Assembly (NCBI GenBank): GCA_949296115.1
Contig: CASFNR010000001.1
Coordinates: forward strand, 124,001 to 188,000
Source: an uncultured Eubacteriales bacterium
GTDB lineage: Bacteria; Bacillota; Clostridia; Oscillospirales; Oscillospiraceae
DNA: 64,000 nt
Reading direction: 5' to 3'
In this document: positions 18,500-31,043 of the stretch, piece after piece
How the letters are laid out: the number at the start of each line of letters is the position of its first letter
How positions within the stretch are numbered: the stretch's first letter is position 1
Notes under the pieces: model-generated
The model's database searches: none
What the model was told of the DNA's origin: nothing
The model's input: only the letters and a program-made list of their open reading frames with translations
Program-made: the position numbers and the translations under genes

Positions 18500-18655
18500 T
18501 TATTCCGCAGAGAACTGGTCCTTGCCCACAGAGCAGAGGGGGCACTCAAAATCCTCGGGCACATCCTCCCACTTGGTACCGGGCGCAATGCCGCCTTCGG
18601 GATAGCCCTCTGTCTCGTCGTAAGTCCAGCCGCAAACGTCGCATACATATTTCAT
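18500..18655 (-). CDS. Rubredoxin
   Basis: Rubredoxin of 51 residues with the two iron-binding CxxC knuckles (YVCDVCG and ECPLCSVG). The conserved GTKWEDVPEDF loop lies between them. It carries single electrons, typically to flavodiiron oxygen/NO reductases such as FprA, or to rubrerythrin. The ATG at 18655 follows AAGGAG. The upstream region has a GTGAC-N3-GTCAC palindrome centred at about -41 of a predicted start. fprA and trxA, about 2 kb away, share this palindrome type. Confidence 0.97.
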   Translation of the reverse strand: MKYVCDVCGWTYDETEGYPEGGIAPGTKWEDVPEDFECPLCSVGKDQFSAE

Positions 18656-18701
18656 AAGTGATAGACTCCTTTCAAATTCCATTATCCTTTGGGGTGAAGC
18701 T

Positions 18702-18742
18702 AGGATACCCCATTTTCAAAATAATTACCGTGACAAAGTCAC
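18702..18742 (-). promoter_or_regulatory. Rubredoxin promoter with Crp/Fnr-type palindrome near -41
   Basis: The palindrome GTGAC-AAA-GTCAC is at 18730-18742. On the minus strand a TATCCT -10 (18707-18702) predicts a start near 18695, which puts the palindrome centre at -41, the usual class II activator position. No good -35 is present, as expected for an activated promoter. A near-identical site lies at 20716-20732. Confidence 0.6.
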
Positions 18743-18748
18743 ACTATA

Positions 18749-19528
18749 TCAGTGCTGTCCGCAGCCATGGCTGCCGCAGCCGTGCTCACCGCAGGAGTGT
18801 CCTTCGCCGTGGTGGTGCTCTCCATGATGGTCGCACTTCACATCCGGGTTGAAGGCCAGCGTTCCCGCAGCCAAAGCCTGCGCCGCTTCATCCGCACTGC
18901 CGGATACGCCGCCATAAAGCCGGATTCCCGCCTCTGCCAGTGCCATCTGTGCGCCGCCTCCGATTCCGCCGCAGATCAGGGCGTCCACGTTCAGCGCCCC
19001 CAGCACGCCGGCCAGGGCGCCATGTCCGCTGCCATTGGTATCCACGATTTCGCTGGACACGATTGCTCCATTCTGAACATCATACACCTTGAACTGCTGG
19101 GTATGACCAAAGTGCTGAAAAATTTCTCCATTTTCGTAAGTTACCGCAATTCTCATGGTACATTCTCCTTTCGGTTTCTGAAAACGTGTCTGGATTTCCC
19201 GCAAAAGGCAGCCGCTGTCGCCGCACGCTGCCCCGCCGTCGCACAGGTGGTACTCTCCCCCCTGAATCATCAAAGGGGCGCCCTCCACCAGCATATCCGC
19301 CAGCTTGCGTCTGGCAGATGCGTAGATCAGCTGAACCGTTGTACGGGCCACACCCATACGGCGGGCGCAGTCCTCCTGGGACAGCGATTCCCGGTCAATC
19401 AGTCGGACGGTCTCGTATTCATCCACCGTCATGACGATGGGATTAGTTTGCTGTTCCGATCCGGCAGGTGCAAACCGTCTCACTTCGGGGAACGTACATA
19501 CCCGGCGCATTTTTCTGGGTCTCGCCAT
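18749..19528 (-). CDS. DUF134 DNA-binding domain fused to NifX/NifB-type cofactor-binding domain, His-rich tail
   Basis: Fusion of 259 residues. Residues ~1-95 match the DUF134/UPF0251 family: MARPRKMRRV, then a sigma-4-like helix-turn-helix in LSQEDCARRMGVARTTVQLI. Residues ~125-230 match the dinitrogenase iron-molybdenum cofactor family (MRIAVTYENGEIFQHFGHT, then DALICGGIGGGAQMALAEAGI). The C-terminal ~30 residues are His/Cys/Gly-rich and look metal-binding. The start at 19528 is set by a promoter whose predicted start (about 19559) excludes the earlier ATG; AGGTGA precedes it. No nif genes are present, so a role in iron-sulfur or metal sensing is inferred. Confidence 0.88.
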   Translation of the reverse strand: MARPRKMRRVCTFPEVRRFAPAGSEQQTNPIVMTVDEYETVRLIDRESLSQEDCARRMGVARTTVQLIYASARRKLADMLVEGAPLMIQGGEYHLCDGGAACGDSGCLLREIQTRFQKPKGECTMRIAVTYENGEIFQHFGHTQQFKVYDVQNGAIVSSEIVDTNGSGHGALAGVLGALNVDALICGGIGGGAQMALAEAGIRLYGGVSGSADEAAQALAAGTLAFNPDVKCDHHGEHHHGEGHSCGEHGCGSHGCGQH

Positions 19529-19565
19529 CCGATTCACCTGACCCTTCATCTTGAAATCCAACTAT

Positions 19566-19593
19566 AGTATAACTCATTATTGACATATGTCAA
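19566..19593 (-). promoter_or_regulatory. Promoter of the DUF134-NifX fusion gene
   Basis: On the minus strand, TTGACA (19593-19588), a 16-bp spacer and TATACT (19571-19566). The predicted start is about 19559 and the leader about 31 nt. The -35 element lies inside a perfect palindrome. Confidence 0.8.
19580..19593. promoter_or_regulatory. 14-bp perfect palindrome in the divergent Crp/Fnr intergenic region
   Basis: TTGACATATGTCAA is a perfect dyad of the TTGAC-N4-GTCAA form, an FNR/HcpR-like layout. It overlaps the -35 of the minus-strand promoter and lies at about -53 of the plus-strand promoter, a suitable place for repression of one gene and activation of the other. It is adjacent to the gene for a Crp/Fnr regulator, so autoregulation is likely but inferred. 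Confidence 0.6.
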
Positions 19594-19604
19594 CAAAAAT
19601 AAAA

Positions 19605-19633
19605 TTGACAGGACATGAAATTGGGATTATACT
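19605..19633 (+). promoter_or_regulatory. Promoter of the Crp/Fnr regulator gene
   Basis: TTGACA (19605-19610), a 17-bp spacer and TATACT (19628-19633). The predicted start is near 19640, which rules out the earlier ATG at 19587 as the translation start. Confidence 0.85.
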
Positions 19634-19655
19634 GTGTAGAAAAGGGGGCGAAGGT

Positions 19656-20312
19656 GTGGATTTTGCAAGCTGCTTTCCCATTTGGGACAAGCTGACACCG
19701 TCTGAGCAGGCGCAATTATCACAGCGTGCGGAGCTTCGCAGCGTCAAGGCCGGAACCGTTCTGCACAACGGAGACATGGACTGCCTGGGGTTGCTGGTGA
19801 TCTGCTCCGGTCAGCTGCGGGTATATACATTGTCTGAAGAAGGCAGAGAAGTAACCCTCTACCGGCTGTTCGATCAGGATATTTGTCTGTTCTCCGCCTC
19901 CTGTGTGATGACCAACATTCAGTTCGAGGTGATTGTGGAGGCGGAAAAGGACAGCCAGATGTGGGTGCTTCCCTCCGGCCTGTTCAAACAGATGATGGAG
20001 CAGTCCGCTGTCGTCGCCAATTATGCGAATCAGCTTATCAGCAGTCGGTTCTCGGAAGTGATGTGGCTGATGGAACAGATTATGTGGAAAAGCTTTGACA
20101 AGCGGCTGGCAGGTTTCTTGCTGGACGAAAGCCAACTGGAAAATACAGCCGTTCTGAAAATTACCCACGAAAAAATAGCCAACCATATGGGCACCGCCCG
20201 GGAGGTTGTCACCCGAATGCTGCGCTACTTCCAGAGCGAGAACCTGGTGCATCTGACCAGGGGCACCGTGGAAATTCTGAACCCGAAAGCACTGCAGGAG
20301 CTGCGCTCATAA
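19656..20312 (+). CDS. Crp/Fnr-family transcriptional regulator
   Basis: Regulator of 218 residues. An N-terminal cyclic-nucleotide-binding-type sensor barrel covers about residues 10-125, and a C-terminal winged helix-turn-helix has ITHEKIANHMGTAREVVTRM. The recognition helix keeps the R-E-x3-R spacing of E. coli CRP rather than the E-x2-SR of FNR, which predicts GTGA-type half-sites. No N-terminal Cys cluster for an FNR-type iron-sulfur centre is seen. The GTG at 19656 is chosen because the promoter start is near 19640 and GGGGGCGAAGG precedes it. The ligand is unknown; haem/NO or redox sensing is inferred from the flanking rubredoxin, thioredoxin and FprA genes. Confidence 0.92.
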   Translation: MDFASCFPIWDKLTPSEQAQLSQRAELRSVKAGTVLHNGDMDCLGLLVICSGQLRVYTLSEEGREVTLYRLFDQDICLFSASCVMTNIQFEVIVEAEKDSQMWVLPSGLFKQMMEQSAVVANYANQLISSRFSEVMWLMEQIMWKSFDKRLAGFLLDESQLENTAVLKITHEKIANHMGTAREVVTRMLRYFQSENLVHLTRGTVEILNPKALQELRS

Positions 20313-20335
20313 AAAAGGAGAGAGCCGAAGCTCTC
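20311..20335 (-). terminator. Intrinsic terminator of trxA
   Basis: On the minus strand, GAGAGC-TTCG-GCTCTC is followed by CTTTTTT. It lies between convergent trxA and the Crp/Fnr gene. Confidence 0.85.
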
Positions 20336-20354
20336 CCCGCTTTCAAATATATCC

Positions 20355-20663
20355 TTATCCCAGCAGCGCCAGAATCTGCTGCTTGGGGCGGGCGCCGATG
20401 GACTGATTGACAATCTTGCCGTCTTTCACGACCAGAAGCGTGGGAATGCTCGCTACCTTGAAGGTGGCGGCCAGTTCCACTTCTTCGTCCACATTTACCT
20501 TGCAGACTTTGATGTCCGGGCGCTCGGCGGCAATCTCGTCCAGGATGGGGCCGACCATCCGGCAGGGGCCGCACCAGGGAGCCCAGAAGTCCAGCAGAAC
20601 CGGTTTCTCACTGTTGATTACTTCCTGAGTGAAATTCTGTTTTGTAATATGCAGTACCGACAT
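20355..20663 (-). CDS. trxA: Thioredoxin
   Basis: Thioredoxin of 102 residues with the active site WAPWCGPCRM at about residues 27-36 and the conserved cis-proline in ASIPTLLV. It is a cytoplasmic dithiol reductant for ribonucleotide reductase, peroxidases and others. No thioredoxin reductase gene is in the window. A GGAGGTAAC ribosome binding site precedes the start. It is divergent from fprA, and the shared intergenic region holds a 17-bp palindrome centred at -41 of a predicted trxA start. Confidence 0.97.
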   Translation of the reverse strand: MSVLHITKQNFTQEVINSEKPVLLDFWAPWCGPCRMVGPILDEIAAERPDIKVCKVNVDEEVELAATFKVASIPTLLVVKDGKIVNQSIGARPKQQILALLG

Positions 20664-20689
20664 TGCAGTTACCTCCTGTTTTTTCTTTT

Positions 20690-20732
20690 ATTCTACTGCG
20701 CTGCCATAGGAAATTCCGTGACCAAGTCACGG
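20690..20732. promoter_or_regulatory. Divergent trxA/fprA regulatory region with 17-bp palindrome
   Basis: CCGTGAC-CAA-GTCACGG (20716-20732) is a perfect 7-3-7 dyad, nearly identical to the site upstream of rubredoxin. On the minus strand TAGAAT (20695-20690) predicts a trxA start near 20683, putting the dyad centre at -41. On the plus strand a weaker TATGTC (20750-20755) gives about -38 for fprA. It is a candidate binding site for the Crp/Fnr regulator encoded nearby. Confidence 0.6.
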
Positions 20733-20783
20733 TTTGCCGTATTTTTTTGTATGTCCGAAACTGATAGATAAGGAGAAAGATAT

Positions 20784-21941
20784 ATGACCATTACAAAGGA
20801 TATTCGCTACATCGGCGTCAATGACCATCAGGTGGACCTGTTTGAGGGGCAGTATGTGGTTCCCAACGGTATGTCTTACAATTCCTACGCCGTGATGGAT
20901 GAAAAGGTCGCGATTTTTGATACCGTGGACCGGAACTTCGCATCACAGTGGCTGGAGAACATCAACGCTGTTCTGGATGGCCGCAAGCCGGACTATCTGA
21001 TCATCCAGCATATGGAGCCGGATCACTCCGCCAATATTGCCAAGTTTCTGGACGTATATCCGGATGCCACAGTGGTCTCTTCCGCCAAAGCCTTTACCAT
21101 GATGGGTAATTTCTTCGGCCCGGACGTCGCCCCGAACCGCATGGTGGTGGGTGAAGGCAGCACCCTGTGCCTGGGCAGCCACACCCTGACCTTTGTTACC
21201 GCCCCCATGGTGCACTGGCCGGAGGTGATTGTAACCTATGATTCCCTGGACAAGGTGCTGTTCTCCGCCGACGGCTTCGGCAAGTTCGGCGCTCTGGATG
21301 TATCCGAGGAGTGGGATGACGAGGCCCGCCGCTATTACATCGGCATCGTGGGCAAGTACGGCCCCCAGGTCCAGGCGCTGCTGAAGAAGGCTGCCGGGCT
21401 GGAGATCAGCACCATCTGCCCCCTGCACGGCCCGGTGCTGACGGAGAATCTGGGGCACTACCTGAACCTGTATAACCTCTGGTCCTCCTATCAGCCGGAG
21501 GAGAAGGGCGTCGTGGTGGCGTATACCTCCGTCTACGGCAACACCAAGGCAGCCGCTTTGCTGCTGACCCAGGAGCTGAAGAATTCCGGGTGCGCCAATG
21601 TTGTGGTTTACGACCTGGCCCGCTGCGATATGGCCCAGGCTGTGGCAGACGCTTTCCGCTACGACAAGCTGGTGCTGGCCACCACTACCTATAACGCAGA
21701 TATTTTCCCCTTCATGAAGGAATTTATTCACCACCTGACGGAGCGGAACTTCCAGAACCGCACCGTTGCCTTTGTGGAAAACGGCACCTGGGCTCCCACT
21801 GCCGCCAAGGTCATGGCCAAGATGCTGGAATGCAGTAAGAATCTGACCTTCACCGAAACCACTGTGAAGGTGCTGTCCGCACTCAGCCCGGACAGCAAGG
21901 CGCAGATCGCCGCATTGGCAAAAGAACTGAGCAGCCTGTAA
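20784..21941 (+). CDS. fprA: A-type flavodiiron protein FprA
   Basis: Flavodiiron protein of 385 residues that reduces O2 to water or NO to N2O in anaerobes. The N-terminal metallo-beta-lactamase-like domain has the diiron ligands in QHMEPDHSANIAK (HxExDH). Further ligands lie around MVHWPEVIVTYD and CPLHGPV. The C-terminal flavodoxin domain begins near residue 250 with the FMN loop TSVYGNTKAA. Electrons normally come from rubredoxin, encoded 2 kb away. AAGGAG precedes the start, and a bidirectional terminator follows. Confidence 0.97.
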   Translation: MTITKDIRYIGVNDHQVDLFEGQYVVPNGMSYNSYAVMDEKVAIFDTVDRNFASQWLENINAVLDGRKPDYLIIQHMEPDHSANIAKFLDVYPDATVVSSAKAFTMMGNFFGPDVAPNRMVVGEGSTLCLGSHTLTFVTAPMVHWPEVIVTYDSLDKVLFSADGFGKFGALDVSEEWDDEARRYYIGIVGKYGPQVQALLKKAAGLEISTICPLHGPVLTENLGHYLNLYNLWSSYQPEEKGVVVAYTSVYGNTKAAALLLTQELKNSGCANVVVYDLARCDMAQAVADAFRYDKLVLATTTYNADIFPFMKEFIHHLTERNFQNRTVAFVENGTWAPTAAKVMAKMLECSKNLTFTETTVKVLSALSPDSKAQIAALAKELSSL

Positions 21942-29672: not shown

Positions 29673-31043
29673 ATGAATTTCTCCATGCAACATTCACTCA
29701 GAAAAATTCTGAGTCTGATTCTGGTTGTCACTCTGGCTGCCACTGCACTGACCGGCTGCTTCGGTTCATCCGATGCGGGCGAAACCACGGGGGAGACCTC
29801 CGGTTTGAACATCAATCTGTCTGACCCCACCGATCCCGCCGTCAACACCACGGTTCCTGCCGAGACCGAGGCGGTTGAGATCAACGAAAATACGGCGACC
29901 ATCCTCAGCGAGCTAACGGTTCGCAGCAACCCCAGCGCCGACGCCTTCATCGTCGGGACCCTCTATGCCGGCGACCGGGTTGAGATTAACCGCCGTGAGG
30001 AAGTAACCAACATTGATTGGGCCTACATCATCTCCCCCATGTCCGGCTGGATTATGATGGACTATGTAAAGATGGACATTGAGCCTGAGGGCGAAGGCGG
30101 TTCCGATACCAGCACGCCTGCCGGCAATGGCACCGTCACAGAACCCACCCAGGGCAGCACCAATACCGGGACCGGGACCAATACCGGCAGTGGGACAACC
30201 ACTAACATCGCCGGGACCATCACCGCCAGCGCTCTGTACATCCGCAGTGAACCCAGTACAAGCGGAAAAGTCCAAGGCTCTTATTCCAAGGGTGACAAGG
30301 TCACCATTCTGGAGACCAAGGACGGCTGGGGCCGGACCAACAAGGGCTGGATCAGCATGCAGTACGTCAGCACCAGCGGAACCAGCACCGGTACCAATAC
30401 CGGCACCAACACCGGTACGAATACGGGAACCAGCACCGGCAACGGCAGCACCACCGTGCAGTTTAAGGGAATTGTTACCGCTTCCGAGCTGAATATTCGC
30501 AGCACCGCCAGCACCGAAGGCACCCGGGTGGGCAGTCTCTCCTATGGCGCGCGGGTTGAGATCCTGGAGAAGAGCGGCGACTGGGGCCGGACCAAGGACG
30601 GCTGGATCAGTCTGCAGTATGTCTATCAGGACGGCACCACCGGTTCCAAGACCGCCAACGGCATTGTCACCGGCAATCAGCTGAATATCCGCAGCGGCCC
30701 GGGCACCGGGTACGGCTCCGTCGGCAGCCTGAACGCAGGTGACCGTGTGAACATTCTGGAGCAGTTTACTTACAACGGCACCACCTGGGGCTGCATCAAG
30801 AACGGCTGGATCAGCCTGCAGTACGTCTACATCGATGGCACCGGTACCGGCAACGACAAGCACGGAACCATTACCGGAGATAACCTGAACATCCGCAGCG
30901 GCCCGGGCACCGGATATAATTCCGTGGGCACCCTTAACTCCGGAGAGGTTGTCACCATCCTCTATCAGGTGAAGGTGGGCGATACCACCTGGGGCAATAT
31001 CAAGAACGGTTGGATTTCCATGGACTATGTAAATCTTGACTGA
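29673..31043 (+). CDS. Lipoprotein with five bacterial SH3 (SH3b) repeats
   Basis: Surface lipoprotein of 456 residues. The signal peptide has a hydrophobic core ILSLILVVTLAATALTGC, with LTGC as the lipobox, so Cys-33 should be lipidated. Five SH3b units follow at about residues 70-130, 184-235, 265-318, 326-382 and 393-455. Each has the pattern L-x-(V/I)-RS-x-(P/A)-S/G-x-T and ends GWI-(S/M)-M/L-(Q/D)-YV. The units are joined by Thr/Gly/Ser/Asn-rich linkers. SH3b domains usually bind peptidoglycan; no hydrolase domain is present, so an anchoring or scaffold role is inferred. It is monocistronic with a strong promoter and terminator. Confidence 0.9.
   Translation: MNFSMQHSLRKILSLILVVTLAATALTGCFGSSDAGETTGETSGLNINLSDPTDPAVNTTVPAETEAVEINENTATILSELTVRSNPSADAFIVGTLYAGDRVEINRREEVTNIDWAYIISPMSGWIMMDYVKMDIEPEGEGGSDTSTPAGNGTVTEPTQGSTNTGTGTNTGSGTTTNIAGTITASALYIRSEPSTSGKVQGSYSKGDKVTILETKDGWGRTNKGWISMQYVSTSGTSTGTNTGTNTGTNTGTSTGNGSTTVQFKGIVTASELNIRSTASTEGTRVGSLSYGARVEILEKSGDWGRTKDGWISLQYVYQDGTTGSKTANGIVTGNQLNIRSGPGTGYGSVGSLNAGDRVNILEQFTYNGTTWGCIKNGWISLQYVYIDGTGTGNDKHGTITGDNLNIRSGPGTGYNSVGTLNSGEVVTILYQVKVGDTTWGNIKNGWISMDYVNLD
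30381..30444 (+). repeat. 12-bp microsatellite-like repeats coding Thr-Gly-Thr-Asn linkers
   Basis: Imperfect tandem copies of the 12-bp unit ACCGGTACCAAT encode TGTN repeats in the linker between SH3b units 2 and 3. A shorter similar tract lies at about 30157-30200. Such tracts can change length by slippage in steps of four residues. Confidence 0.75.

Follow-up and report, generated by a model that had tools for sequence, protein, structure and literature searches.

How strictly anaerobic gut Clostridia switch their defense against oxygen and thiol stress is, to our knowledge, poorly known, and a locus of an uncultured Eubacteriales bacterium (Oscillospiraceae; assembly GCA_949296115.1) poses this question in a concrete form. 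We analyzed a stretch of 64,000 nucleotides of its contig CASFNR010000001.1 (hereafter the window; G000:C1:124001-188000, in a genome of 2.42 Mb on 85 contigs), in which a gene for a Crp/Fnr-type regulator lies between two near-identical palindromes, one upstream of a rubredoxin gene and the other between the thioredoxin gene trxA and a divergent fprA-like flavodiiron gene. Does this regulator activate the redox genes around it, and does it do so through these palindromes? A first-pass annotation, made from the sequence of the window, had proposed such a circuit. Computation established the site itself, its conservation, its fixed distance from the -10 element, its co-occurrence with the regulator, and the set of genes that follow it, and we consider it very probable that the Crp/Fnr protein activates these genes through this site. 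The observation of the first-pass annotation was confirmed, and its interpretation is supported in a modified form, with a 13-base-pair (bp) operator and a wider, thiol-centered regulon.

A palindrome with a five-base spacer at a fixed distance from the -10 element

Both palindromes were found in the window, GTGACAAAGTCAC at 18730-18742 and CCGTGACCAAGTCACGG at 20716-20732, together with the -10 elements that had been proposed for them on the minus strand (TATCCT at 18707-18702 and TAGAAT at 20695-20690). Exact matches to GTGACN3GTCAC occurred three times in the window, whereas the mean over 100 dinucleotide-preserving shuffles was 0.01 and not one shuffle reached three; when one mismatch was allowed, the count was three versus 1.3 by chance, and 11 of the 100 shuffles reached three. 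A composite pattern, consisting of the site, RGW, and a -10 element at fixed spacing, had exactly two exact matches in the window, namely the rubredoxin and trxA dyads (0.15 expected with two mismatches). The third exact dyad, at 30292-30304, lies inside an SH3-repeat-like gene and has no -10 element at the right spacing. Written as half-sites, the palindrome is GTGA-N5-TCAC, a 13-bp core that is 1 bp shorter than the GTGA-N6-TCAC of CRP.

The same spacing dominates among relatives. Our footprinting set comprised the best 80 of 382 loci with a homologue of the regulator (844 kb), in which GTGA and TCAC were separated by five bases in 121 cases, spread over 62 of the 80 loci, versus 5 cases for a four-base and 8 for a six-base spacer; the other spacer lengths peaked at 29 cases (three bases), nearly all within genes. 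In the noncoding DNA of these 80 loci and of 16 kb of the window (13% of the DNA, by approximate gene calls), the five-base spacer was present 85 times, versus 0, 8, 1, 1, 2, 1, 0, 0, 0, 0, 3, and 1 times for spacers of 0, 1, 2, 3, 4, 6, 7, 8, 9, 10, 11, and 12 bases. Because of this noncoding excess, we take the GTGA-N5-TCAC motif to be real and to be a 13-bp palindrome. A 14-bp core (N6) is usual in the Crp/Fnr superfamily, although not strictly defining, and here it was represented by that single noncoding copy. The CRP-like GTGA half-sites of the first-pass annotation were thus upheld, with a shorter spacer on which it had not remarked. In the nearest relatives (L005 to L008), the exact core is kept 75 bp from the rubredoxin gene, and the trxA/fprA site of L005 reads GTGATAAAGTCAC.

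The distance between the site and the -10 element is nearly constant. Oriented sites beside labeled gene clusters numbered 91, which reduced to 65 non-redundant sequences (below 80% identity) with a core of GTGAY-N3-RTCAC and a full motif of TTCYGTGAYWWWRTCACRGAA, the promoter side being better kept. In 44 of the 65, the first base of a TANNNT hexamer stood exactly at +29 from the site center, while no other offset accounted for more than 6; without the 10 sequences that face the crp gene, a TANNNT was present at +28 to +30 in 50 of 55. Since transcription would start ~7 bp past the -10 element, the site center is predicted to lie near -41, where the first-pass annotation had put it, and with these predicted start sites it would have the geometry of a class II activator. 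Class II CRP sites are centered at -41.5. We infer that the promoter-proximal TCAC would stand in the register of class II CRP promoters, with the distal half-site 1 bp nearer. At the position of a -35 element (17-bp spacing), the mean match to TTGACA was 2.2 of 6 bases versus a background of 1.6, a slight excess that is due to the GA in CACRGAA. The operator-bearing promoters thus appear to have no real -35 element, and the conserved GA of CACRGAA may do part of its work.

The regulator, its co-occurrence with the site, and the genes that follow

The gene at 19656-20312, which lies between the palindromes as had been noted, encodes a protein that its predicted domains place in the Crp/Fnr superfamily: HTH_Crp_2 (61 bits, cutoff 27; E = 1.1e-16) and cNMP_binding (40.9 bits, cutoff 27.5; E = 2e-10). 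No NCBIfam model reached its cutoff for this protein (best 40.3 bits versus 211); the CRP model scored 34.8 bits versus a cutoff of 266 and the Fnr model 32.9 bits versus 228. Its closest named homologues belong to uncultured Oscillospiraceae and Candidatus Faecousia (84 to 91% identity), which suggests that the window comes from a Faecousia-like bacterium of the gut. The recognition helix, TAREVVTRML, has the R-E-x3-R pattern that had been likened to CRP, with R182, E183, and R187 as the equivalents of CRP R180, E181, and R185, and all three residues are kept in all 115 distinct homologues taken from the loci. From this invariant pattern, GTGA half-sites are predicted; in a comparative study, CRP R180 and E181 correlate with positions G3 and A6 of the site (PMC1274295).

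The sensor domain is conserved at Cys43 and Cys83 (115 of 115 homologues each), Cys77 (111 of 115), and His37 (108 of 115). In the alignment, judged by eye, the three cysteines would sit on either side of the cyclic-nucleotide pocket region, and because of this placement the protein may be a cysteine-based redox, metal, or cluster sensor; the residues of the cyclic AMP (cAMP) pocket, compared by eye, are presumably replaced. The nearest solved structure was 3dv8 (E = 6.8e-87 over 216 of 218 residues; 8.7e-09 for the next structure), which in the alignment shares the positions of Cys43/77/83 and of R-E-x3-R.

Regulator and site also go together across genomes. Among 297 genomes of the window's order with a completeness of at least 90%, 125 had a regulator homologue (E up to 1e-20) and 92 had the composite site, versus none for a reversed control pattern. 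With the window's own genome left out, the site occurred in 88 of the 124 regulator-bearing genomes versus 3 of the 172 others, as counted from genome lists copied by hand and with kinship ignored. Within the window's family outside its genus, these counts were 16 of 18 versus 0 of 16, and in each of the six genera there that include both kinds, as read from tables, site and regulator agreed. In the three exceptions that have a site and no regulator, a site was close to the end of a contig (44, 413, and 500 bp away), so the regulator gene may be unassembled. Of 145 listed sites, 90 had a regulator homologue on their own contig; the other 55 did not, and 51 of these were in genomes with a homologue elsewhere. 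The composite with the 14-bp CRP spacing (N6) had three matches in the 297 genomes, as did its reversed control.

In the window's own genome, the dyad GTGAYNNNRTCAC occurs 11 times, versus 6 for the reversed control. Five of these are composite sites (reversed control, 0), and all five precede redox genes (Table 1); the other six sit in open frames of 361 to 764 amino acids belonging to unrelated genes, which by eye resemble rpoC, an HtrA-like protease, a flippase-like membrane protein, an SGNH hydrolase, a peptidase, and the SH3-repeat-like protein of the window. This genome-wide scan and the footprinting, in which the site, its spacing, and its -41 position are conserved near regulator homologues, were both suggested as checks by the first-pass annotation, and both bear out its proposal.

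A wider tally covered 148 distinct composite sites at loci L152 to L299, out of 162 in the order-wide table (own genome included in both). The first recognizable downstream gene was most often TrxA (67), followed by 4Fe-4S ferredoxin (20), rhodanese (9), CcdA (6), and desulfoferrodoxin (5); SDR, ferritin, ferredoxin-thioredoxin reductase, TrxB, and a 6-pyruvoyl-tetrahydropterin-synthase-like protein (4 each); DsrE-like, rubrerythrin, and another ferredoxin-like protein (2 each); and rubredoxin, peroxiredoxin, polyferredoxin, and rubredoxin-rubrerythrin-like (1 each), with 11 unclassified. Counting out SDR and the synthase, redox genes followed 129 of the 148 sites, which is a tally rather than an independent test, as the exemplars of the target classes came partly from the same clusters. 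Pfam confirmed 9 of the 10 target representatives tried; the names rhodanese, ferritin, SDR, DsrE, rubrerythrin, and peroxiredoxin were given by eye. The oxygen and nitric oxide (NO) defense set of the first-pass annotation was borne out in its redox character, in a wider and thiol-centered form, and its NO part is weakly supported: no hybrid-cluster-protein class was among the 137 classified targets, in a survey that included no search aimed at hcp. The target set points to defense against thiol, oxygen, and peroxide stress rather than NO.

The synthase-like targets (L241 to L243 and L294, in G264, G205, G153, and G318) are near the regulator in all four cases. In addition, one stretch of 11 kb (G270:C34:39757-50542, L254 to L258) holds five composite sites, with two homologues of the regulator beside them on that contig, and appears to be a concentrated redox cluster.

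Proposed mechanism and competing explanations

We propose that the Crp/Fnr protein of 19656-20312 would be a member of a subfamily in the window's order and other Clostridia, that its dimer would bind the 13-bp palindrome GTGAY-N3-RTCAC centered near -41, and that it would work there as a class II activator, with RNA polymerase engaging the promoter without a separate -35 element. Its targets would be the genes for thioredoxin, thioredoxin reductase, rubredoxin, rubrerythrin-like proteins, small 4Fe-4S ferredoxins, and a polyferredoxin-like membrane protein. The relatives would add those for rhodanese, CcdA, desulfoferrodoxin, ferritin, and ferredoxin-thioredoxin reductase. The three near-invariant cysteines of the sensor domain, where a cAMP pocket would be, would read a redox or thiol signal, and control would probably act through the activity of the protein, because the regulator gene has an ordinary promoter of its own. 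Binding by this protein, activation, and the redox or thiol signal are what we infer from these sequence patterns.

Several observations weigh against this proposal. The -10 spacing is fitted in only 1 of 10 cases in the direction of the crp gene and in 2 of 5 fprA promoters; the window's fprA has a poor -10 element in its own direction, with TATGTC at +26, so that the single circuit first suggested for rubredoxin, trxA, and fprA is supported for the sites of the former two and is weak for fprA. The composite site is missing from 36 of the 124 regulator-bearing genomes, a shortfall partly expected because the pattern is strict and the homologues reach down to 27% identity, and a looser pattern showed no excess (two matches versus three for controls) in the complete genome G019, which belongs to the same genus and has the regulator. 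The bare AT-rich dyad GTGAYWWWRTCAC was rejected as a genome marker, as it is also frequent in some regulator-less genomes (6 in G203, 5 in G183, and 5 in G267; controls 0); the composite with the -10 element was used because the bare dyad does not discriminate. The Fisher values for co-occurrence ignore phylogeny, and the reversed-pattern control is biased by rare TAG-like words. In G055, the source of one of the three N6 composite matches, a trxA-like gene beside a 38%-identical homologue is preceded by a 14-bp (N6) site (L300, G055:C1:8781-8822), which keeps the TCAC-to-(-10) distance of the N5 sites and is probably a natural variant of the spacing; G157, of the same genus label, has the 13-bp form. 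Finally, nearly identical neighborhoods of regulator, rubredoxin, DUF134, trxA, and rhodanese were seen in records of different genera (L032, L036, L039, L046, L051, L057, L061, L062, L071, L072, and L082), hinting at horizontal transfer or contaminated bins.

The same regulator might instead bind and repress, or repress some genes and activate others, with the operator blocking polymerase. The site overlaps the would-be -35 element, so binding could occlude polymerase, and Crp/Fnr proteins can act in both ways, as is predicted for HcpR (PMC545781). A repressor, however, would not need an exact spacing, and the fixed -10 distance together with the lack of a good -35 element fits a promoter that needs an activator; we regard repression as unlikely. 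Another regulator, either a second Crp/Fnr paralogue or the neighboring DUF134 protein, could bind the palindrome, which would leave the Crp/Fnr gene a mere neighbor. DUF134 genes do occur in 15 clustered cases (81 loci), further Crp/Fnr-like proteins are found in a few loci (clusters 5 and 28), and co-occurrence is not binding; yet the strong genome-level association is tied to this Crp/Fnr protein, with DUF134 far less regular, and it is the invariant R-E-x3-R of this protein that predicts the GTGA half-sites, which makes a different binder quite improbable.

The near-identity of loci from different genera (L039, L046, L057, L061, L062, and L082), suggestive of transfer or contamination, would also suit a palindrome that is simply a promoter part or a shared ancestral sequence, with no dedicated regulator and with conservation reflecting descent or cluster transfer. 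We find this scarcely credible, as the 65 sequences below 80% identity keep the site and its -10 distance but differ at every other position, and sites precede many unrelated genes, also on other contigs. Activation by the Crp/Fnr protein through the palindrome is the explanation that we prefer.

Known systems resemble the proposed one in part. Escherichia coli CRP at class II promoters has the same Crp-type helix-turn-helix, with R-E-x3-R for GTGA half-sites, and the same distance from the promoter-proximal TCAC to the -10 element, but differs in its spacer (N6 versus N5 here) and in having no three near-invariant sensor cysteines. HcpR1 and HcpR2, as described in PMC1274295 and PMC545781, are likewise Crp/Fnr regulators of redox genes, predicted by comparative genomics in Clostridia and delta-proteobacteria; they differ in their motifs (wTGTGAn6TCACAw, TTGACn4GTCAA, and GTAACn4GTTAC, each of which has a core of 14 bp) and in their core targets, hcp and frdX. 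The match to 3dv8, a Crp/Fnr family regulator of Eubacterium rectale according to PMC6955866, is full-length, and in the material covered 3dv8 is a structure without an assigned function. That paper presents PgRsp of Porphyromonas gingivalis, another redox-linked Crp/Fnr protein, modeled on 3dv8, which differs in being a 207-amino-acid heme-binding protein (PMC6955866). We found no published description of the present subfamily or its regulon in the open-licence literature, with RegPrecise outside the search.

A broader proposal would be that this unnamed subfamily serves as a principal redox activator in many Clostridia of the gut, with a 13-bp operator, a dimer geometry 1 bp under that of CRP, FNR, and HcpR, a class II register kept by the proximal half-site, and sensing of oxidants, thiols, or persulfides through a Cys43/Cys77/Cys83 center that replaces the cyclic-nucleotide pocket; here our belief and our doubt are evenly balanced.

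The locus and its meaning

Table 1. Features of the locus in the window, and composite sites elsewhere in the same genome (contig given where it is not that of the window).
Feature	Position	Strand	Basis or remark
Rubredoxin gene, 51 amino acids	18500..18655	-	Pfam PF00301, E = 5.5e-22
-10 element TATCCT, rubredoxin promoter	18702..18707	-	first base 29 bp from operator center
Predicted operator GTGACTTTGTCAC (minus-strand reading), rubredoxin promoter; composite site	18730..18742	-	same exact core in L005-L008
Gene for DUF134 + Nitro_FeMo-Co fusion protein, start uncertain	18749..19561	-	Pfam, open reading frame
Sigma-70-like promoter TTGACA-N17-TATACT of Crp/Fnr gene, with own -35	19605..19633	+	sequence
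Crp/Fnr regulator gene, 218 amino acids, GTG start	19656..20312	+	Pfam, 115-sequence alignment, relative 3dv8
Thioredoxin gene trxA, 102 amino acids	20355..20663	-	TIGR01068 above cutoff
-10 element TAGAAT, trxA promoter	20690..20695	-	sequence and composite match
Predicted operator, GTGACTTGGTCACGGAA-type, trxA promoter; composite site	20718..20730	-	sequence; 54 bp from divergent fprA gene
Gene for fprA-like flavodiiron protein, 385 amino acids, possible target	20784..21941	+	PF19583 and Flavodoxin_5
Composite site before second thioredoxin gene, then thioredoxin-reductase-like gene	C8:49104-49144		
Composite site before gene for 70-amino-acid two-cluster ferredoxin, then polyferredoxin-like membrane protein	C17:17054-17094		no Pfam match for the membrane protein
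Composite site before gene for 216-amino-acid rubredoxin/RUBY_RBDX protein	C17:25731-25771		

The open frame of the regulator spans 19587-20312, and its start is most likely the GTG at 19656, because relatives show ATG or GTG followed by GAT after a GGAGG-like sequence there. By eye, the regulator genes of L005 to L008 have the same TTGACA-N17-TATACT promoter arrangement. The intergenic region of DUF134 and Crp/Fnr also holds a perfect 14-bp FNR-like palindrome, TTGACATATGTCAA (19580-19593), which was considered as an Fnr site because of its proper spacing and set aside as incidental, because TTGACN4GTCAA was found in L005 alone among 14 loci checked and because TTGACATATGTCAA is built from the overlapping -35 boxes of the divergent DUF134 and Crp/Fnr promoters. 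The adjoining DUF134 (helix-turn-helix-like) and Nitro_FeMo-Co fusion is treated here as a neighbor rather than as a target; such DUF134 neighbors are recurrent across loci. The best NCBIfam match of the fprA-like protein was flavorubredoxin NF008887 (180.8 bits, under the cutoff of 635).

These results make a regulator and an operator, along with a promoter geometry and a list of targets, available for direct testing, and a likely function can be offered for 3dv8, the relative with a solved structure. The operator, shorter by 1 bp, raises the question of how the geometry of a Crp-type dimer is adapted, for which the 14-bp form in G055 provides a natural comparison. Overall, many gut bacteria that are sensitive to oxygen appear to have a family of regulators that acts through a distinctive, short palindrome at the usual position of an activator and switches on thioredoxin, rubredoxin, and other redox-defense genes.

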